Assembly: GCF_000711985.1 (NCBI RefSeq)
Contig: NZ_KL544005.1
Span: 1,315,970 to 1,379,969, forward strand
Origin: Rheinheimera texasensis DSM 17496
GTDB lineage: Bacteria > Pseudomonadota > Gammaproteobacteria > Enterobacterales > Alteromonadaceae
Length of the DNA stretch: 64,000 nucleotides
Direction: 5' to 3'
Shown: in pieces, positions 953 through 52,179 of the stretch
Layout of the letters: the number at the start of each line of letters is the position of its first letter
How positions within the stretch are numbered: position 1 is the first letter of the stretch
The notes under the pieces: model-generated
Told to the model about the DNA's origin: nothing
The model's database searches: none
Seen by the model: only the letters and a program-made list of their open reading frames with translations
Position numbers and translations under genes: made by a program

Positions 953-3441
953 AGGCTGTTAACCAATAACCGGCCTGAGCCGACAAAATAACCGCGGAAT
1001 ACCGGGTTGTCTGTCATCGCGACAATACGCCCTTCGCCAACATTGTGCGCCAGCACTGTGGCGCTATTACGAAATACATTGACCAGCGCCGGATCGGCAT
1101 AACCGGCTAACTGTGCCTGATCGCTATAACGAGCGACGGTAACAAAAGGCTGTTCAGCCGGCTCCATCAATAACAGATCATTTTTAAACACCGGCAGTTG
1201 CTGACGCGGCAAGCCAAAAGTCAGTGGATGGCTCAGATCGACGTCAGTCTGGAAAATCGCTCCTGCAATACGCTGACGACCAGCCAACTGTTCTTTGTCC
1301 TGGTAAGCTGGCGCGGTCATAGTGACTAAGGCTCTTAACTCGCTGGCTTTTTTCAGCTTGGCTTGCAGCAGATTTTTTTCCGCCAGCCAACTGACTGCCG
1401 CTTTTTGTGCCCACAACACACCGCCTTGTTCCAGCCAGCCTTTCAACTGCGCCACTTCGGCATCGCCCCAGCTGTTGTAATTGCCATCCGGTAACAGAAT
1501 ATGGCTGTAGCGTGCCAGATCGAGGCGTTTCAGCCGTGCCGGTTCGGCCATCGATGGTGATACGCCCGCCAGACGCTCAATGGCAAACCACAGTTCACCG
1601 GCTTCCGTTGAATTGATGCCAGGGCCTGCCACCAATAAAACCTCCGGCAACACCAGCGGTTTGACCTGATTACTGCCCAAATCCTGGCCTTGCGGCGTCA
1701 GGCCTGAAGTTAATGCACTGAGCGCTAACGGCTGTTTCTGGGCAAATTCGCGTAGCTTTTGCTGCCAGCCTTCAGCTTGCAAACCCGCGGGCAGCAGCAC
1801 AGTACCTGCAGCAAACTGCTGAACACCTTGTGCCGTCATAGCACTGAATGCCTTCGGCGCCACTCTGAGCTGAAAACCTGCCTGCAATAAACGCGCAGTT
1901 TGCACTGGTGCCTGTTGATCAGCCCATGGCAGCGCATAAGCGTAAGCACCATCATTAAACGTCTGTGCTGTGGCTGCAGGTTCGGTCCAGGCTTCAGCTG
2001 CAAGTTCTGACGGCGCTTTGCGGCTGGCGGCAAAATCGATGTTGTAGGCGTACGGCAAGGTCCAGGCTGACACGTCATAAAAGGTGTTGTCGCGGAAATT
2101 GGTATCCGTATTAAAGGCCGCTTTGAGCAGGTTGTACTGGCTTTGTTCTACCGGCACGAAATAACTGTGGCCGGCCTCAAAGGTTTTGCCGTTAATCTGG
2201 AAATCTTCGGTCAGTGCATAAGCGGCAATTTGGTGTTGTTTTAACAACTTCAATAGTGCCGCAAGCCGGCTTTGATCGGCCGCTTCACGCAACAAATAAC
2301 CACGCACCGGATCAAGCCGGGCCTGCTCTTTGGACTTCTGCGCAAACTGATACTGCGCTTGTTGTAAATCCTGTTTATGCGCTACGGCGCCATTGAGCGT
2401 TGAAAACGACGTGCGGTACTGATTGTCGATGGCAAAGCTAAAACTGAGTTCCGACTGCAGGCTCTCCTGCAGGTGGCCCCGGCTGCTGCCTTGCTCGAAC
2501 AAAATGCCAACACTGCCGTGCACATCCGGGTATGTGGAGCCTTTACCAACATAAAAATCGTCGAAAGCTTCTTCAGTGAAATATAGCCGGTTCACCTCGT
2601 CCAGTGCTTTGGCATGGAATTGCGCCAGCTGATTGGTCAGTTTGATAGTCGATTCCGGTGCAAAGGGGCTGTTACGGCTTGGAATGCCGGGCTGGAAAAA
2701 GAAGGTGCTGTTGGTGCCCATCTCATGAAAATCCGCCACTATTTGTGGCCGCCAGCGGTGGAACTGCGCGATACGGGCCCGGCTTTCCGGATGCTGCAGT
2801 AACAACCAATCACGGTTTAAATCAAACCAATAGTGGTTCGGCCGGCCATTCGGCCATGGCTCAACATGCTCCCGATGTTGCGGATCTGCAACCGGTGCAG
2901 TGCCCTGATGCATATTGACCCAAGTCGCAAAACGGTCGTTACCGTCCGGATTCAGGCTGGGTTGCAGCAAAATAATGCTGTTGTCGAGCAGGTTTTTGAC
3001 CGCCGGATCTGTCGAAGTCAGCAGCTGATGAACAACCCGCAGCGAGGCATTGGCGCCGCTGGCTTCATTGCCGTGGATGCTGTAACCGAGCCAGACGATA
3101 GCTGGCAGCGTCGGATCAGGTTGTTTTTCACCGCGACTGACCGCGAGGTGCGCTTCGCGAATTTGCTCCAGTCGCTGCATATTGGCGGCAGAACTCAGAA
3201 TAAGCTGCAATAAAGGCCGCTGCTCGTGGGTCCGGCCAATAATGTCAAAGCGGGTGCGATCCGGCGCTGCTGCAGCGGCGGCACGCAAATAAGCCTCGAG
3301 CTGGTCATGGCGCGCATGCCACTGACCGGGTTCAAAGCCCAGCACCTCCGACGGAGCGGGCACCACAGGGGCATTCTGTGCCTGCAGCACAGGATGAAAA
3401 AATGCAGTCGCCATCAACAGAGAAAGAGTAAAAGTTCGCAC
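898..3441 (-). CDS. Secreted M14-family zinc metallocarboxypeptidase
   Basis: The 847-residue protein begins with a clear signal peptide (MRTFTLSLLMATAFFHPVLQAQ). The M14 zinc site is visible: HGNE at about 123-126 as the HxxE pair, NPDGNDRF near 164-171, and the third ligand in ADFHEMG near His239. A candidate catalytic Glu lies in ILFEQGSSRG. The C-terminal half resembles the class I glutamine amidotransferase-like extension seen in many long M14 proteins and has no motif I can assign. The GTG start is chosen because AGGAGG lies 7 nt upstream. The C-terminus is acidic (DSGDDSGDGDE) and is encoded where the gene overlaps comF by 55 nt tail to tail. It probably degrades peptides in the periplasm or outside the cell. 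Confidence 0.85.
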   Translation of the reverse strand: MRTFTLSLLMATAFFHPVLQAQNAPVVPAPSEVLGFEPGQWHARHDQLEAYLRAAAAAAPDRTRFDIIGRTHEQRPLLQLILSSAANMQRLEQIREAHLAVSRGEKQPDPTLPAIVWLGYSIHGNEASGANASLRVVHQLLTSTDPAVKNLLDNSIILLQPSLNPDGNDRFATWVNMHQGTAPVADPQHREHVEPWPNGRPNHYWFDLNRDWLLLQHPESRARIAQFHRWRPQIVADFHEMGTNSTFFFQPGIPSRNSPFAPESTIKLTNQLAQFHAKALDEVNRLYFTEEAFDDFYVGKGSTYPDVHGSVGILFEQGSSRGHLQESLQSELSFSFAIDNQYRTSFSTLNGAVAHKQDLQQAQYQFAQKSKEQARLDPVRGYLLREAADQSRLAALLKLLKQHQIAAYALTEDFQINGKTFEAGHSYFVPVEQSQYNLLKAAFNTDTNFRDNTFYDVSAWTLPYAYNIDFAASRKAPSELAAEAWTEPAATAQTFNDGAYAYALPWADQQAPVQTARLLQAGFQLRVAPKAFSAMTAQGVQQFAAGTVLLPAGLQAEGWQQKLREFAQKQPLALSALTSGLTPQGQDLGSNQVKPLVLPEVLLVAGPGINSTEAGELWFAIERLAGVSPSMAEPARLKRLDLARYSHILLPDGNYNSWGDAEVAQLKGWLEQGGVLWAQKAAVSWLAEKNLLQAKLKKASELRALVTMTAPAYQDKEQLAGRQRIAGAIFQTDVDLSHPLTFGLPRQQLPVFKNDLLLMEPAEQPFVTVARYSDQAQLAGYADPALVNVFRNSATVLAHNVGEGRIVAMTDNPVFRGYFVGSGRLLVNSLYFGKLFDSGDDSGDGDE

Positions 3442-29425: not shown

Positions 29426-29923
29426 ATGCGAATTCTGAGTACTCTGCCCCTGTTTTTATTGCTGAGCAGCCAAGTGCTTGCAGCTGATTTGCCCACGGCA
29501 TTACACAACTGCTTGCAGCTGGCAGAAGACCATGCCCGCCTGCAATGCTATGACCAACTGGCACGCAGCACCCAACAACTCACTGCAACGCCTGCAAAGC
29601 CTGCAAAGCCTGCAAAGCCTGCAAAGCCTGCAACGCCAACGGTGCAGGTCGCAGCAGATCCTGTCCAGAGCTTTGGTCTGGAAAACCGCGCGCCGGAGCA
29701 GCAGGTCGAAGACCTGAGACTGACAGCCAAAACAGTCCGCATCACGTCAAAAGGCCGGCTCGAAATCAATATGCAGAATGGTCAGATATGGCTGCAAACC
29801 GATGACAGCCGGTTAGATGTGAAACCCGGCGATGTTTGCACTATCACCCGCGCAACTTTTGGATCTTTCCTGCTCGATAACGGCCGTAGTAACCGCAAAA
29901 TCCGGGTTCGTCGTGTCGACTGA
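29426..29923 (+). CDS. Secreted protein, tandem paralogue B (unknown)
   Basis: The 165-residue protein has a signal peptide (MRILSTLPLFLLLSSQVLAA) and the motif CLQLAEDHARLQCYDQL. A linker of Ala-Lys-Pro repeats follows, then a C-terminal domain with DLRLTAKTVRI, INMQNGQIWLQ and ATFGSFLLD, ending KIRVRRVD. It shares all four blocks with the preceding gene, which ends IRVKRVR. AGGAGA lies upstream of the ATG. Its end overlaps tatD by 11 nt. Function is unknown. Confidence 0.8.
   Translation: MRILSTLPLFLLLSSQVLAADLPTALHNCLQLAEDHARLQCYDQLARSTQQLTATPAKPAKPAKPAKPATPTVQVAADPVQSFGLENRAPEQQVEDLRLTAKTVRITSKGRLEINMQNGQIWLQTDDSRLDVKPGDVCTITRATFGSFLLDNGRSNRKIRVRRVD
29591..29635 (+). repeat. 9-bp tandem repeat in paralogue B linker
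   Basis: Four exact copies of CCTGCAAAG and a fifth variant (CCTGCAACG) code for a Pro-Ala-Lys linker. Unit length keeps the reading frame. Replication slippage could change linker length between strains. Confidence 0.9.
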
Positions 29924-43230: not shown

Positions 43231-43941
43231 ATGACGCAGATTTTGTTACTGGAAGACGAACCGGGCATCGCAGATGCAGTGATCTATAGCCTGCAGGCGG
43301 AAGGCTGGACTGTGCACTGGTGTACTTTACTGGCTGAAGCCCGCCAACGCTGGGCCCAGGCCGACTTATTACTGCTCGACGTGGGCCTGCCTGATGGCAA
43401 CGGTTTTGAATTCTGCAAAGAGATCCGGCGCAGCAGCGAAGTCCCGGTCATTTTTCTGACCGCCCGCCATGATGAAACCGATCGGGTGGTCGGGCTGGAG
43501 ATAGGTGCCGACGATTATGTGATCAAACCATTCAGTCCACGCGAACTGGTGGCCAGAGTCAAAGCCAATCTCAAACGCTGGCAGCGTCCGGTCACCGCAG
43601 CAACGCAACAAAACCAGTCTCAGCAGAGTATTGGCGATTTTGTCTGGCAGCCACAGGTTTGCCGGATCAGCTGCTGTGCACAGGTGCTGGACCTGACAGC
43701 GCTGGAATACAAACTATTAAGTCATTTTCTGCAGCAGCCGAATCAGGTACACAGCCGTGAACAGTTGCTGGCCGCTGGCGATATTGCGCAGAGCAGTCAA
43801 TACGAGCGCAATATCGATACCCATATTAAAAGTCTGCGCGCCAAACTGCGCCGTTGCAGTGACCGGCAGTATCTGCTGACACAACGCGGTTTTGGGTATC
43901 TCTGTGTGCCGGCAGGTCAGCTGGACAGCGGCCCATGCTGA
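43231..43941 (+). CDS. creB: Response regulator CreB (OmpR/PhoB family)
   Basis: The 236-residue protein has a receiver domain with phosphoacceptor Asp50 (LLLLDVGLPDG), acidic pair ED at 9-10, switch Thr in VIFLTARHDE and Lys in DDYVIKPFSPREL. A winged-helix output domain follows (LTALEYKLLSHFLQ, and RNIDTHIKSLRAKL). The creBCD gene order identifies it as CreB, a regulator linked to carbon metabolism and, in relatives, beta-lactam response. A longer frame upstream is rejected because the family begins at MTQILLLEDE. The stop overlaps creC by 7 nt. Confidence 0.9.
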   Translation: MTQILLLEDEPGIADAVIYSLQAEGWTVHWCTLLAEARQRWAQADLLLLDVGLPDGNGFEFCKEIRRSSEVPVIFLTARHDETDRVVGLEIGADDYVIKPFSPRELVARVKANLKRWQRPVTAATQQNQSQQSIGDFVWQPQVCRISCCAQVLDLTALEYKLLSHFLQQPNQVHSREQLLAAGDIAQSSQYERNIDTHIKSLRAKLRRCSDRQYLLTQRGFGYLCVPAGQLDSGPC

Positions 43942-45413
43942 ACCCATCCCATCCGCTGTGGCGCCATCTGCGGCTGCCGTTCGCGCTGCGGTTGTTCCTG
44001 TTGTATTTTGCTTTTGTCGGCCTGACCGGGTATCTGGTGCTCAGTGTACTGGCCGAACAGATAAAGCCCGGTTTTCGCCAGGCCAGCGAAGAAAGCCTTA
44101 TTGATGCCAGTCAGCATCTGGCCGATCTGGTCGCGCCTCATCTCAGCCAAGGCCGGCTGACGAACCCGCAAGTCGAACAGATGTTGCGCCAATATGGCCA
44201 GCGCAGTGCCCGGCCAGAGCTGTGGGGCCTGCAGCGTACCCCGCCGGACCACCGCATCTACCTGACCGATCAGCTGGGCATAGTACAATTTGACAGCAAA
44301 GACCTGGCTGTTGGCGCCGATTATTCGCGCTGGAACGATGTGTATCGCACGCTGCGCGGTCTGTATGGCGCACGCTCCAGTCCGGCCAGCGACCAGCCGG
44401 GCGCACCGACTGTCATGCATGTGGCTGCGCCGGTACGCGCATCGGACGGTCAGATCATTGGTGTTTTGACCCTCGCCAAAAGCAATCAAAGCCTGCAACC
44501 ATTTATCGATCGCAGCGAGCGTTATTTACTCGAACGGGGCATAGCCCTGATGTTATTGGGCTTGCTGTTTGGCGGGTTGCTGACCTGGCGTCTGCAAAGT
44601 GGCCTGAACCGCTTGCGCCAATATATTCAGGGTCTGCATGCCGGACTGCGGCTGGCGCCACCCAAATTCCGGCTGTTTTTTGAGTTTGGCGATCTTGCCA
44701 CTGCCCTCGACACATTCCGCGCCAAACTGGAAGGCAAAGCGCTGCGTGATGAAGCGCTGCAAACGTTAACCCACGAACTGAAAAGCCCGCTGACGGCGAT
44801 CCGGGCAGCCACTGAAATCCTCGGCAATCCGCTCCCTGAAGCAGACCGGCAGAAATTTCTCGGCCACATCCGCAACGAATCAGACCGGCTTAACCGGCTG
44901 AGTGAGCAACTGCTGGCCATTTCCGCCCTGGAGCAGCTGCCGCACCTGCCGCAGCCGGTGCCGGTCGCACTGGACCTGCTGGTCCGTCAGTTGCTGGAGA
45001 GCAACAGTGCCAGACTTGCGACAATGCAGGTGCAGCTGCAACTTGAACTAACACCGCAACAACTGGCCGGCGATGCCTCGCTGTTACGTCAGGCGCTGCA
45101 ACATTTGCTGGATAATGCGCTGGACTTTATGCCCAGTGGCGGCTGGCTGCGACTGACGCTGCAATCACAGCAGCAGAAATTATGCCTGCAGCTGGCCAAT
45201 CAGGGACCGCAGATCCCGGACTTTGCCCTGGCGCGGCTTGGTGAAAAATTTTTCTCACTGCCAAGGCCGGCCGGCAGCGCTAATGCCGGTCGCAAAAGCA
45301 CCGGTCTGGGGTTGTGTTTTGTCCGTCAGGTGCTCGCGCTGCATCAGGGAGATTTGCAATTTGAGAATCTGCCCGACGGGGTTCAGATCAGCATCTGGCT
45401 GCCGTCGCTGTGA
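43935..45413 (+). CDS. creC: Sensor histidine kinase CreC
   Basis: The 492-residue protein has helix 1 near 17-38, a periplasmic sensor part of about 150 residues and helix 2 near 195-215. A HAMP-like linker and a kinase core follow, with H-box QTLTHELKSPLTAIRAA near 276-292, N-box LDNALDFMPSGG and G-box STGLGLCFVRQ. It phosphorylates CreB. The signal sensed is not known. It starts inside the creB end (ATGCTGA overlap). Confidence 0.92.
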   Translation: MLNPSHPLWRHLRLPFALRLFLLYFAFVGLTGYLVLSVLAEQIKPGFRQASEESLIDASQHLADLVAPHLSQGRLTNPQVEQMLRQYGQRSARPELWGLQRTPPDHRIYLTDQLGIVQFDSKDLAVGADYSRWNDVYRTLRGLYGARSSPASDQPGAPTVMHVAAPVRASDGQIIGVLTLAKSNQSLQPFIDRSERYLLERGIALMLLGLLFGGLLTWRLQSGLNRLRQYIQGLHAGLRLAPPKFRLFFEFGDLATALDTFRAKLEGKALRDEALQTLTHELKSPLTAIRAATEILGNPLPEADRQKFLGHIRNESDRLNRLSEQLLAISALEQLPHLPQPVPVALDLLVRQLLESNSARLATMQVQLQLELTPQQLAGDASLLRQALQHLLDNALDFMPSGGWLRLTLQSQQQKLCLQLANQGPQIPDFALARLGEKFFSLPRPAGSANAGRKSTGLGLCFVRQVLALHQGDLQFENLPDGVQISIWLPSL

Positions 45414-45418
45414 AAAAA

Positions 45419-45456
45419 CTCCATCAAAACTCCACATAAGCTCCAGCCCGGCTCCA
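45419..45456 (+). promoter_or_regulatory. Four CTCCA repeats with 11-bp period (candidate CreB operator)
   Basis: CTCCA occurs at 45419, 45430, 45441 and 45452, exactly 11 bp apart (N6 spacers), in the creC-creD gap. The E. coli CreB site is a pair of TTCAC pentamers with the same N6 spacing. The bases differ but the geometry is identical and doubled. GACAAT at 45478-45483 could be the -10 box, placing the last repeat near -40. Confidence 0.6.
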
Positions 45457-45520
45457 CCCGGGGTTTGCTGCCAGGCGCGACAATTGCGCCGTGATCAGGC
45501 AAAACCCCGGAGGAATCCCA

Positions 45521-46852
45521 ATGCTGAAACATAAAATAATTCTGGTCGCCGCACTGATAGCCTTGCTCTGGCTGCCGGTCGGTGTGATCCACAATCTGGT
45601 ACTGGAACGTGCCGAACTCAATCAGCAGGTACAACAGCAAATTGCCGACAGCAGTAGCGGTCCTCAGTTGCTGAGCGGGCCGCTGCTGGTGCTGGAACTT
45701 GAAGCCATGCCGGTTCTGTCCACAGACAAAAGCAGTGTCCAGCGCCAATATCTGCTGCAACAGCCCGACGAACTACAACTGAGCAGCGAGGTGCAGACCG
45801 AACAACGCAGCCGCGGTTTATACCGTGCAAGGGTTTATCAGAGTCAGCATCAGATTAAAGCCAGCTTTACCGCGATTGCGGCCGAACTGTTGGCCAATAC
45901 CGCAGCAGGGCAGGCTGATGCACCCCGGATAAAGGCCGCCTGGATCAGTTTCGCCGTCAATGACAGCCGCGGTTTTACCCGCTTACCACAACTCAAACTG
46001 AATGGTGAACTGCAGCAATTTGCTTCCGGCAGTAAACTCAGTTTTCTGCCGGAAGGTTTTCACCTGCCGCTGCCGGTGAGCCAGCTGCAGCAAGCAATGA
46101 ACCTGGAGCTGTCGGTGGAACTGCAGGGCAGCAGCAGTCTCAGTGTGTTGCCGGTCGCACGCAGCAGTCGTTGGCAATTGCGCAGTAACTGGCCGGATCC
46201 GGCGTTTCAGGGCCGTTACCTGCCGCTTCAACGTGAAATCAGTCCGTCCGGGTTTATTGCCAGCTGGCAAAGCAGTGAATTATCTAACCCGGCCGGACTG
46301 GAGCTAAGCCGCTGCTTTGGCCAGCCAAGCTGTAAAGCACTGACGGAACAGGCATTCAGTGTCAGTCTGATTGAAGCAGTCGACCCCTATCAGCAAACCG
46401 AACGGGCCATCAAGTATGCCATTCTGGTGATAGTGCTTAGTTTTGCCTGGTTTTATCTGGCGGAATTGCTGAGCCCTACCCGCTTCCAGCTACATCCGAT
46501 GCATTATTTACTGGTCGGGCTCACGCTGGTGATGTTCTATTTACTGCTGTTGTCACTGTCTGAACTAGTTGGCTTTCTGGCGGCCTATTGGCTGGCGAGT
46601 CTGGCGTGTGCGTTCTTGCTATATGGCTATCTGGCTGCGGTATTGCAAAGTCTGCAGCGCAGTCTGGCGGTCACAGCCGCTTATCTGCTGCTGCAGGGCC
46701 TTTTATATCTGATTTTGCAGGCAGAAACTTTTGCCCTGCTCAGTGGCACACTGCTGTTATTCGCCACTTTAGCAGTACTGATGCTCAGTACCCGCCGGCT
46801 GAACTGGCAACAGGTCTGGCAAAGCCAAACGTCACCAGGCGACGGGAACTGA
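45521..46852 (+). CDS. creD: Inner membrane protein CreD
   Basis: The 443-residue protein has one N-terminal helix, a periplasmic domain of about 270 residues (HNLVLERAELNQQVQQQ, then SGPLLVLEL), and five or six C-terminal helices starting near 305 (AIKYAILVIVLSFAWFYL). FYLAELLSPTRFQLHPMHYLLVGL is the conserved CreD segment. It is the usual target of CreBC. GGAGG lies 7 nt before ATG 45521. Its end converges with the MFS gene, 10 bp apart. Confidence 0.92.
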   Translation: MLKHKIILVAALIALLWLPVGVIHNLVLERAELNQQVQQQIADSSSGPQLLSGPLLVLELEAMPVLSTDKSSVQRQYLLQQPDELQLSSEVQTEQRSRGLYRARVYQSQHQIKASFTAIAAELLANTAAGQADAPRIKAAWISFAVNDSRGFTRLPQLKLNGELQQFASGSKLSFLPEGFHLPLPVSQLQQAMNLELSVELQGSSSLSVLPVARSSRWQLRSNWPDPAFQGRYLPLQREISPSGFIASWQSSELSNPAGLELSRCFGQPSCKALTEQAFSVSLIEAVDPYQQTERAIKYAILVIVLSFAWFYLAELLSPTRFQLHPMHYLLVGLTLVMFYLLLLSLSELVGFLAAYWLASLACAFLLYGYLAAVLQSLQRSLAVTAAYLLLQGLLYLILQAETFALLSGTLLLFATLAVLMLSTRRLNWQQVWQSQTSPGDGN

Positions 46853-48185: not shown

Positions 48186-51100
48186 TTAACGATGTAACTC
48201 GCGGTCTGGCCGCTCCGCCGGACGCAGCGGCCGTTGCGCCGGGAACGATCGCTGCTGCAGATGTTGCAGACTATGCGCATCCAGTCGCTGCAACTCCTCA
48301 TTGAATTGCTGCAGGTTGTATAGGGTATCTGCTGCACCAGGCTTATTCAGCTGCTCCACCAGCGCCTGCACAAAACGGGCAAATGGCTCGCTATGTTCAG
48401 TTACCAGACGATTTTCCAAATCACGCACACAATGTGCATTGCCTTGTTTCAAGCAGTCAGCCATTGCCAGATGTAACGCAGGCTGTTGTTTCACCAGGTA
48501 ATAATGCAGCGCATAACTCCAGTGATACGTCAGGTCACGGTTTTCATAATTGTTGCGGAATAAAGTATTCAGATCCGGCCTTTTGTCCGCCGGCGTATTG
48601 CGCAGCACAGCAAATCCGCGTGGGAACTGGTCGCCCCAGGCCACCCACTCCGCCAGACCTTCCGCCCACCAGCTGTTAATCATCTGCTGCGACGCTGGAA
48701 AATCGCCTTTTTGGATAAAACGACCATCCAGATAATGGGTATATTCGTGTTCCAGATTCCACACCCACCACTTGTTATCCGTCACCTGCTGATAAGCAAA
48801 ATAACGCGGCTGGTTTTGCGGGTCGGCCGGATTGCCTTCCAGGTACAAACCGCCATTATTGGTATCAATGCCGTACAACAAGCCAGCATAGTCTTGGTAA
48901 TGGCTTGAGCTGTTGAAGATCACCGCTTCAAGTTCGTCATTGTGGTCATCCGGCAATGGCTGATTGGCGGTTTTCATCAGCTGATGGAAACGGCTGGTGG
49001 TCTGGTCCAGCGCGCCACAGACCGCCTGACGCTGGTCGCTGTCGAGCTGATCATAAGTCAGCCGAACCGGCACTGCGCATTGGGCTGAGCCCGCTAACAC
49101 ATCCGCGATATTCAGTTTCAGACATACATCTGCCAAAGATCCCTGACACAAATTCAATGCTTGTTCTGGCTCACGATACCCCAGAGAACGCTGTAAGAAA
49201 TGGCCATAAAACCGCGCCCGTAACTGCTGTTGCTGCGACGCGGTCCAGGCTGGCAGCGCCTGCCGGTAAATACCCGCCAGCGTTGCAATCACCTGTGGCT
49301 TTTGCGGATCTGAACTCTTGTACCACAAACTGCTTGCGACATTGTTCAGGTTATTCAGGATCCAGAACGGGTTGGAATTATTCGGTTCAATCAACGGCTG
49401 AGTAGTTCCAAGCTGGATTAACAGCTGGCTCACGCGTTCAAGCAGAAAAACAGGTGCTGAAACTTCAAAGTTGGCATACAACAGCCGGTACAGATAATCC
49501 ATCAGTTCATAAAAGGCCTTCGCATTTTCATAAGGCAGCTTGGTCAGGTTTGGCCGTTGATACAGACTGACCGCCAGCAACACCGGTGACATGGACTGGA
49601 GCCGCTCCGTTTCCATCGTGCTGTGATATTGCAACATGTACACCACGTCGCTATACAACCGCTGCAGCTGTGCGCCGCTGAGCGAAGTGCTGTAAAAACC
49701 CGGCATTTGTTGCAAATGACGGCCAACAGTCGTCAGTTGCTGCCACTGTGCCGGTTGCCAGACATCATCTGCGAGGGTATTGGCTTTAAAATAGTAACTT
49801 CGCAGATAGTACCCAAGCCGATAGAGCAATAAATCACTGCTGTCACCGCGCAATATCAGCGAATCCAATGCACGTAGCGCCTGATAAGCAGTGGTCTGGC
49901 TGTGATCACTGATCTCAGTAAATGGGTCTTTACCGTCCAGAATTGGTTTCAGCTCAGGCGGAAAATCCGCTACGCTTTGCCATTCCGGCGCCAGGGCCGC
50001 ATTGCTCGCATCATTGTGCAGCAAAGACTGTTCACTGTAATCCAGCTCAATCCGGGCTTGACGGGGTTTGCCGTCTGCATCCTGAAACTGCACAACAAAC
50101 CGGTCTTTTAGCACGGTATTGCTGGCCGGCGTATAGCTAAACCGACCGGGTTCGAGCTGCACTTTGCCTTGCCGGGGCGCCAACACCAAGCTTAATTCAC
50201 CAGCGAGTGGCTGCCCCCCCACTACCGGTACATCGCTCTGCCGGATATTGCCAGCTAACGACTGGCCCGGTTCACCGAATAATTGATAGCTGCTGCCAGA
50301 CAACACCGGCCGCGGCTGCATTTTCAGCTCGATCTGCACTGTGGTTGACTTCAGGCTGCCGTCCGAAGCTTGTACACTAAAAGCCTGGTTCGCCTGCGAC
50401 CCGGCAGCTGCCAGATATCGGAATTTGCCATCCGGTTGCAGTTGCAGTTCGCCTGCTGTGGGAGGTGTCACCACAGCAAAACTCAGCGGATCATTGTTCA
50501 CATCCGTTGCGTGCACTTGACCATCAACAAAATGATCCTGCTGCACAACAAGCTGCAGCGGTTCAACTACGGGTGCCTGATTGACAAAAGGTGTCAGGTT
50601 GAGCACCAACTGCTGGTAACTCTTTAAGCTGCCATCACTGACCTGCACGTCTAGCTGTACCTGAGTTACCGTTTCCTGCCGGTCGACAAAATAACTGAAC
50701 TGGCCATTTTCCTGCAGACTGAATTGCCCTACAGGCACCGTACTGAGCTGGCTGAAGGTCAGTACGTCATTGTCGGCATCCAGCGCCTGCAACTGGCCCT
50801 GGAACCTGGCGCCTTTACTGAGGGTAAAATGTTGCGGACTCACCTGCGGTGCGGTATTCGGCGGGTCTAGCAATTGAAAGGTCACTTTGGCGCCGATAGT
50901 CGATTTGTCTGCATACACCAGATAAAACTCCAGCTGGTCAGTACTGGCTGGCTCTTTTTTGCTGACGGTATAACTAAACAATCCATCTTGGCTAACCTTG
51001 AACTCACCATGTTTAGGCTTGCTATATAAGACAAACCTGACCTGATCATCCGGATGGTACAGAGCGGGCAACTGCCCGGTCAGCGTCTGGCCTTTCAGCA

Positions 51101-52067
51101 CAGAAAACTGTGCCGGCAAGGGGTCAGGGTTACCCGCTTTGGCGCTGTGCAATAAAGTCAGCAACGCTTCGCTTGAATAAGCACTGCCATCATGCACGCG
51201 GAAGCGGATTTGCTGCGGCTCAGCGCCGGGTTTATAGCTGGCATCCAGCTGAAAACGGCCATCCGGTTGTAGCTGCAGGTAAGGACTGGCAGCACTGTCG
51301 ACCAGACTAAAACTCAGCTTGTCGCCGTCCGGGTCTATCGCCTGCAGCTGACCAGTTTGTGTCTGGCCAGTTTTGACCTGCACAAAAGCCGGCTGCGCCA
51401 CCGGCGACTGGTTTTGTGCATCACTCAGACTGAATTGGATTTGTGCCGTCGGACTCTCCGCATGATCGAGCCGGATCTCAACGATGTCGGTCAGCTCTTT
51501 GGCCTGACGTGGCGCCATATAAACAAAATTACCGGCACTGTCGGCACTGAAGTAACCAGTGGCATTTTTTTGCACCTGAAACCGGACTTTCTCCCCTTCA
51601 GCTGTTTGCGCCTGTAACTTGCCGCTGAACTGCCGGCCTTTGCTGACCTGATAACTGGCGGGAACAGGCTGAGGTTTGCCCGGACTTGGGGCTAAATTGA
51701 TATCAAAGACGGCGGCCGCTGATTTCAGCTGACCATCTGATGCAGTCACACTAAAACTGACAGTGCGGGCCGGCAATAACGCGGGGATTTCATAACGAAA
51801 ACTACCATCGGCCTGTAAATCGAGCTTACCAAAGGCCGGGGACTGTACCAGCTGGAAACTGATGGCATCCTGCTCGGCGTCTTTCGCCTGCAAACGCCCT
51901 TCCAGTTTGCTGCCGGACCAGCCTTGTAATGGCGCAACCGTAATCACCGGCGCGGTATTCTGCTTTTGTACTATGTCCGGTTTGTTACTGGTCGCAGCGC
52001 CGCGACCGCCGCCACAACCGCTCAGCAATAACAAACATAAGCCGTTGAATAAAAATCCCTTTCTCAT
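48186..52067 (-). CDS. Giant lipoprotein with tandem Ig/cadherin-like repeats and M9-collagenase-like domain
   Basis: The 1293-residue protein starts with a lipoprotein signal (lipobox LLSGC near 15-19) and a Gly-rich spacer. About seven repeats of 85-95 residues follow (roughly 36-670), with motifs such as LQALDADNDVLTFSQL and QVSDGSLKSYQQLVL, typical of tandem cadherin-like or Ig-like folds that often bind calcium. The C-terminal half contains a gluzincin site, WNLEHEYTHYLDGRF with HEYTH near 1107-1111 and a downstream Glu in WWAEGLAEWVAWG, as in M9 collagenases. It is likely exposed at the cell surface and degrades proteins. ATG 52067 is chosen because the lipoprotein signal begins there. 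A 112-bp AT-rich gap precedes it. Confidence 0.85.
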   Translation of the reverse strand: MRKGFLFNGLCLLLLSGCGGGRGAATSNKPDIVQKQNTAPVITVAPLQGWSGSKLEGRLQAKDAEQDAISFQLVQSPAFGKLDLQADGSFRYEIPALLPARTVSFSVTASDGQLKSAAAVFDINLAPSPGKPQPVPASYQVSKGRQFSGKLQAQTAEGEKVRFQVQKNATGYFSADSAGNFVYMAPRQAKELTDIVEIRLDHAESPTAQIQFSLSDAQNQSPVAQPAFVQVKTGQTQTGQLQAIDPDGDKLSFSLVDSAASPYLQLQPDGRFQLDASYKPGAEPQQIRFRVHDGSAYSSEALLTLLHSAKAGNPDPLPAQFSVLKGQTLTGQLPALYHPDDQVRFVLYSKPKHGEFKVSQDGLFSYTVSKKEPASTDQLEFYLVYADKSTIGAKVTFQLLDPPNTAPQVSPQHFTLSKGARFQGQLQALDADNDVLTFSQLSTVPVGQFSLQENGQFSYFVDRQETVTQVQLDVQVSDGSLKSYQQLVLNLTPFVNQAPVVEPLQLVVQQDHFVDGQVHATDVNNDPLSFAVVTPPTAGELQLQPDGKFRYLAAAGSQANQAFSVQASDGSLKSTTVQIELKMQPRPVLSGSSYQLFGEPGQSLAGNIRQSDVPVVGGQPLAGELSLVLAPRQGKVQLEPGRFSYTPASNTVLKDRFVVQFQDADGKPRQARIELDYSEQSLLHNDASNAALAPEWQSVADFPPELKPILDGKDPFTEISDHSQTTAYQALRALDSLILRGDSSDLLLYRLGYYLRSYYFKANTLADDVWQPAQWQQLTTVGRHLQQMPGFYSTSLSGAQLQRLYSDVVYMLQYHSTMETERLQSMSPVLLAVSLYQRPNLTKLPYENAKAFYELMDYLYRLLYANFEVSAPVFLLERVSQLLIQLGTTQPLIEPNNSNPFWILNNLNNVASSLWYKSSDPQKPQVIATLAGIYRQALPAWTASQQQQLRARFYGHFLQRSLGYREPEQALNLCQGSLADVCLKLNIADVLAGSAQCAVPVRLTYDQLDSDQRQAVCGALDQTTSRFHQLMKTANQPLPDDHNDELEAVIFNSSSHYQDYAGLLYGIDTNNGGLYLEGNPADPQNQPRYFAYQQVTDNKWWVWNLEHEYTHYLDGRFIQKGDFPASQQMINSWWAEGLAEWVAWGDQFPRGFAVLRNTPADKRPDLNTLFRNNYENRDLTYHWSYALHYYLVKQQPALHLAMADCLKQGNAHCVRDLENRLVTEHSEPFARFVQALVEQLNKPGAADTLYNLQQFNEELQRLDAHSLQHLQQRSFPAQRPLRPAERPDRELHR

Positions 52068-52179
52068 CTTATTTGCTGCAACCCAGATTAATAAAGCAGC
52101 AAAGTTAGCGAATGGAAAAGCAAAAAACAATCAAAAATATTACATTTTATTGTTTTTATTTTTCCATTTACTGACGCAA

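Follow-up and report, generated by a model that had tools for sequence, protein, structure and literature searches.

The Pho box of PhoB consists of direct repeats with a pitch of approximately 11 bp. These repeats are read by a recognition helix homologous to that of CreB, and residue 194 of PhoB is aligned with the same position of CreB; the unit of the Pho box, however, has another sequence than that of the array described here and serves another regulator. The cre/blr tag, described for CreB of Escherichia coli and BlrA of Aeromonas, has the sequence TTCAC-N6-TTCAC (extracts of PMC3660660). For Stenotrophomonas maltophilia, extracts of PMC4689548 give a putative tag TTCAC-N6-TTCAA, which has the same geometry as the locus of the present study and lies equally far from the start of creD (-80 to -65) but is of the T-type spelling, with two units described there.

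The stretch of 64,000 nucleotides of Rheinheimera texasensis DSM 17496 that was analysed here (the window) carries four copies of CTCCA in the gap between creC and creD, separated by the six-base spacers TCAAAA, CATAAG and GCCCGG (Table 1). All positions of this exact 11-bp spacing as listed in the original prediction were confirmed. Like the cre/blr tag, the array is a direct repeat of 11-bp pitch that precedes creD and is linked to creBC, and in register it has the same core. The literal TTCAC-N6-TTCAC is absent, the units being CTCCA followed by C, T or G, with one consistent in-register difference; the array was filed as a variant and not as a literal cre tag. Copies 3 and 4 are located at -80 to -65 relative to the creD ATG. 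CTCCA-N6-CTCCA matches the window three times, always within the array (0.03 matches expected from shuffles), and in a scan of pitches 8 to 15 four copies of one pentamer at pitch 11 were found in the array only. The array score of the window was 23.9, the highest of 100 shuffles reaching 19.7. Other four-copy pentamers of the same scan have pitch 9 and derive from a tandem repeat of a 9-bp unit near 29583, where several pentamers occur four times around CTGCAAGCC (approximately 29583-29600).

Table 1 Features of the creBC-creD locus (positions in the window)
Feature	Position	Strand	Details
creB	43231..43941	+	response regulator; Asn194 in recognition helix (RNIDTHIK), Gln218 (E. coli position 219) in wing
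creC	43935..45413	+	sensor histidine kinase; stop at 45413
CreB-box-like array, CTCCA-N6-CTCCA-N6-CTCCA-N6-CTCCA	45419..45456	+	four units: 45419-45423, 45430-45434, 45441-45445, 45452-45456
Fifth grid position, GTTTG	45463..45467	+	no recognisable unit (alignment and inference)
GACAAT	45479..45484	+	probable -10 element (alignment; same spacing in G009 and G006)
creD	45521..46852	+	inner-membrane protein; presumably the gene controlled by the array; ATG at 45521

The three flanking genes are full-length open frames. CreC scored 519 bits against an NCBIfam cut-off of 356 and CreD 426 bits against 275, the latter being also matched by the Pfam CreD family. CreB remained slightly below its cut-off (268.7 bits, NF008296 cut-off 273); this family was its top hit among 84. 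The protein carries the Receiver and Trans_reg_C domains of the OmpR/PhoB family. We consider the four-copy array to be very probably a CreB landing site, and the complete explanation, in which it would be the operator for CreB control of creD in a lineage-specific spelling, to be highly probable. The original prediction is partly supported: a CreB site with E. coli-like geometry is very probable, and the 11-bp direct repeats are conserved in relatives.

Sequences upstream of creD were compared for 122 loci (120 fetched stretches, E. coli K-12 and the window). The stretch includes creC at 76 of these loci and lacks it at 42; four were set aside (L109, L219, L227 and L233, in which contig ends shorten the stretches and no creC was seen). 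A motif search on the 76 creC loci (best of 41 starts) yielded a tandem array with the unit core CxxCA. The learnt motif sets the units in another register, therefore the literal comparison of TTCAC with CTCCA, which is one base out of register, was rejected. Read in register, the window units CTCCAT, CTCCAC, CTCCAG and CTCCAC differ from CTTCAC of E. coli by one consistent base change, T to C at the third base; of the changed bases that had been proposed, this single one stands. The notion that twice the copies are a peculiarity of the lineage had to be given up. E. coli K-12 has the units CTTCAC, CTTCAC, CTTCAA and TCCCAC with steps of 11-10-11 bp, which are also present in 13 of 13 f18 loci and in 19 of 19 f25 loci, and in all of these the third and fourth units are less perfect and are reached via one 10-bp step. 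Steps of 11-11-11 bp, as in the window, were found in all 19 loci of genera with Asn194 in CreB (the window's genus, f1g43, f6, f11 and f16) and in most other loci. The four-unit array is general and not confined to the lineage of the window, the special feature of which is four perfect CTCCA units as compared to E. coli, where two units are perfect and two weaker. Units 3 and 4 of E. coli may already have been described in the original tag papers (Avison 2000, 2001, 2004). In ten f6 genomes (L268-L270, L272-L278) creC reaches its stop codon only 5-7 bases after the start of the first unit, and the operator thus overlaps the end of creC. The creC-creD gap of genus f25g85 (19 loci, L150-L196) extends over approximately 1.0-1.6 kb in 17 of 19 loci and has room for another gene.

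The sequence of the recognition helix is RTVDTHIK in CreB of E. coli and RNIDTHIK in that of the window. Position 194 aligns with Thr194 of PhoB, which makes a van der Waals contact with thymines, and Arg219 of PhoB contacts bases between the half-sites (both from extracts of PMC3973317); beside the conserved Arg of the wing, E. coli CreB has His219 and the window CreB Gln218. Five genera with Asn194 and Lys or Gln at position 219 contribute 13 arrays (for two of these, G009 with an interrupted creB and G020 at a contig end, no CreB residue was read in the alignment), and unit base 3 is C in 51 of their 52 units, 42 of which are exactly CTCCA. Ten further f6 genomes, which are close kin of genomes already used, all have Asn194 and Lys219 and a C in 40 of 40 units. 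At the 38 loci with Thr194, 76 first and second units were counted, and 74 of them have T at this position. In counts by genus, restricted to units that have a CA core, C goes with Asn194 plus Lys or Gln (20/20), T with Thr194 (35/50) and A with Ala194 and Val194 (11/19 and 11/17, together 22/36), and Ser194 has C four times and T three times; these counts are taken from the best-scoring array of each genus and the counts by locus from all loci of the named groups, L237 and L238 being omitted from both. Third bases are mixed in genus f16g30, which has Asn194 and His219 (A 10, C 9, T 2 in 21 core units). This genus and G009 weaken the wing residue 219 as a candidate for a strict partner of base 3: since the interrupted creB of G009 encodes Asn194 and a His in the wing, yet the genome has four CTCCA units, the wing residue is no strict partner.

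The covariation of residue 194 with base 3 is suggestive. In a CreC tree, calculated by a quick method, with long branches, from 46 of the 76 loci (genera other than the window's own represented by no more than two rows each; L237, L238 and L100 left out, and L096 left out of the trait counts), the 13 Asn194 rows group together as a single clade with a support of 96. As far as the tree shows, the change has a single origin, and the covariation does not count as independent evidence. A test on independent pairs (Asn194 with Lys or Gln219 against C) found only two pairs, which agreed in nearly all pairings (p 0.5), and for Thr194 against T the same test gave no support either way. The earlier suggestion that CreB specificity may differ holds in that a residue expected to touch bases differs in this lineage, and is tempered by the covariation being confined to one clade. 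We lean slightly towards Asn194 being the cause of a changed base preference (Thr with T to Asn with C).

Alternatively, CreB might bind the array but read base 3 only weakly, and T, C and A would then reflect lineage drift under shared descent with specificity unchanged. The single clade of the Asn194 rows would be in agreement with this, as would the mixed bases in f16g30, in the Ala/Val194 genera and in units 3 and 4 of T-type arrays, the one CTTCAT among the CTCCA units of G006, and the binding of Salmonella CreB to a promoter without typical cre tag that is mentioned in extracts of PMC7873081. However, C is kept in the 52 and 40 units counted above with a single exception while the spacers vary among the arrays, and the changed residue aligns with a base-contacting residue of PhoB, so that we regard weak reading of base 3 as possible but rather doubtful. 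To a fuller model we assign an even chance. In this model CreB and its operator would have evolved in concert, Thr194 being replaced by Asn and T by C in all repeats, and the boxes of this CreB branch would be orthogonal to the cre tag of E. coli; the operator would comprise four half-sites in two phasings (11-11-11 or, in the f25 and E. coli-like lineages, 11-10-11), and in part of Rheinheimera the array would have slid by one repeat relative to the promoter.

Across genera the array tracked creBC. The unit score used was hand-weighted after the motif had been seen and treats T, C and A at base 3 alike. Of the 32 genera that have creBC near creD, 23 reached a mean array score of at least 20, but none of the 21 genera without creBC did (AUC 0.946, p 2.6e-8; three genomes with creC elsewhere left out, L237 and L238 kept). 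The remaining nine of the 32 genera score under 20, and no array was seen in genus f158g353 (L237, L238), in which creBC is present. Pitch 11 was best in the creBC genera (20.1, versus 16.4-17.8 at pitches 8-10 and 12-14), and the genera without creBC likewise had a slight maximum there (16.1 versus 14.9-15.2). If one locus per genus is taken and nothing removed, two of 24 creBC-less genera exceed 20, namely those of G397 and G1012. When the 42 creBC-less genomes were searched for CreC, only G397, G1012 and G801 had a match exceeding the cut-off. The first two have the two top array scores among the 42 creC-less loci, and their CreB helices, encoded away from creD, read ERTVDTHIK and DRVIDTHIK, respectively; G801 has no array over 18. 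The other 39 loci (L113, L114, L148, L171, L193-L195, L197-L211 and others) have a creD relative in a genome without creC over the family cut-off, and none of their genera averages an array score of 20. Arrays with CTTCAC-type units go with creBC rather than with creD alone. Because the array tracks creBC, including the two genomes with creC elsewhere, it is most likely a CreB operator. That some other regulator of the OmpR/PhoB family, for example PhoB, binds the array and the adjacent creBC is not its controller is conceivable, as family members bind tandem repeats (extracts of PMC3973317 and PMC4832192), but this is very unlikely given that the array follows creBC, including two genomes in which creBC is encoded elsewhere, and that the spelling of the units goes with CreB residue 194.

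In the mechanism proposed for a CreB operator, phosphorylated CreB, a winged-helix regulator of the OmpR/PhoB type, would bind as two head-to-tail dimers, placed side by side on the same DNA face and covering the four direct repeats of 11 bp. Bound CreB would then recruit RNA polymerase to a creD promoter that lacks a good -35 box and probably has GACAAT as its -10 element. The lineage differs in having C for T at unit base 3 (CTCCA versus CTTCA), matched by Asn194 in place of Thr in CreB. We infer binding, the number of dimers and activation of creD from the regulator family and from the CreBC-dependent creD expression reported for E. coli and Pseudomonas aeruginosa. According to extracts of PMC4689548, creD of S. 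maltophilia rises upon inactivation of creBC, which counts against the activation model.

The GACAAT that had been noted downstream of the last copy is present, but the gap amounts to 22 bases, i.e. two 11-bp steps, and not to 21. A consensus promoter and terminator scan of 45380-45560 found nothing. The usual -10 place has its first base 11 bases downstream of base 5 of the last unit, and across 31 genera (L237 and L238 omitted) it has A at the second position in 29 and T at the sixth in 24. GACAAT of the window, G009 and G006 is found one 11-bp step beyond this place. When aligned by promoter, the corresponding slot is occupied by CTCCA in G013, by GTTTG in the window and by ACTCA in G006, which suggests a displacement of the array by one unit.

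The occurrence of creD is patchy: a match was found in 6 of 22 genomes at genus level, in 18 of 295 sampled at family level, in 91 of 394 at order level and in 34 of 369 at class level. Alignment of the upstream regions from relatives, as had been suggested for checking the prediction, showed the repeats to be conserved in all six creD-bearing genomes of the genus. Four CTCCA units are found in the window, G009, G013 and G004, whereas G006 has CTTCA and three CTCCA and G020 three CTCCA and CACCA. The closest relative found, a Rheinheimera metagenome-assembled genome, has a CreD 91% identical to that of the window; in four of the six genomes CreD is just 41-45% identical and three or four CTCCA units are still present. 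The 16 creD-less genomes of the genus had scattered single pairs only, and no overlapping CTCCA pairs were listed for them. In the Rheinheimera metagenome-assembled genome, apparently G009 (L037:1309-3421), the DNA-binding domain of CreB is interrupted by a 374-aa frame (2025-3149) that is transposase-like as judged by eye, and the creD array is intact. The persistence of this array and the displaced GACAAT could be taken to mean that the repeats are a relic or a chance tandem repeat without present function in the window genome, which is highly improbable in view of the low expectation from shuffles, the retention of the array next to such divergent CreD proteins and the open, full-length creB, creC and creD of the window.

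The kind of site is known as cre/blr tag. As far as the literature matches listed show, the four-unit anatomy with two phasings across lineages and the link of spelling to residue 194 are new; no paper among those matches deals with a CTCCA-type CreB site or with CreB residue 194. If the interpretation is correct, the two-unit cre tag represents half of an operator, the CreB sites of entire lineages escape searches for TTCAC-N6-TTCAC, and residue 194 provides a compact and testable case of an OmpR-family regulator and its site changing together.

Seven occurrences of CTCCA-N6-CTCCA were detected in the whole genome (4.59 Mb). The genome search that had been proposed thus recovered the creD array, which accounts for three of them, but of the four remaining pairs three are located within open frames. 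The fourth (L005:1501-1516) is a lone pair lying between two divergently oriented frames, one of which starts at the pair or directly after it, and is a possible second site; no spacer equal to its own was found in the genus listing. A wider CTCCA regulon was considered and rejected: a three-unit pattern with up to two mismatches matched in the window genome the creD array and one two-mismatch site only. Because of this pattern search and the placement of the other pairs we claim no target beyond creD. Elsewhere in the window, the minus strand encodes at 48186-52130 a frame of 1314 amino acids with cadherin-like-looking repeats and a HEYTH motif near the C-terminus, which by its sequence looks like a secreted peptidase.
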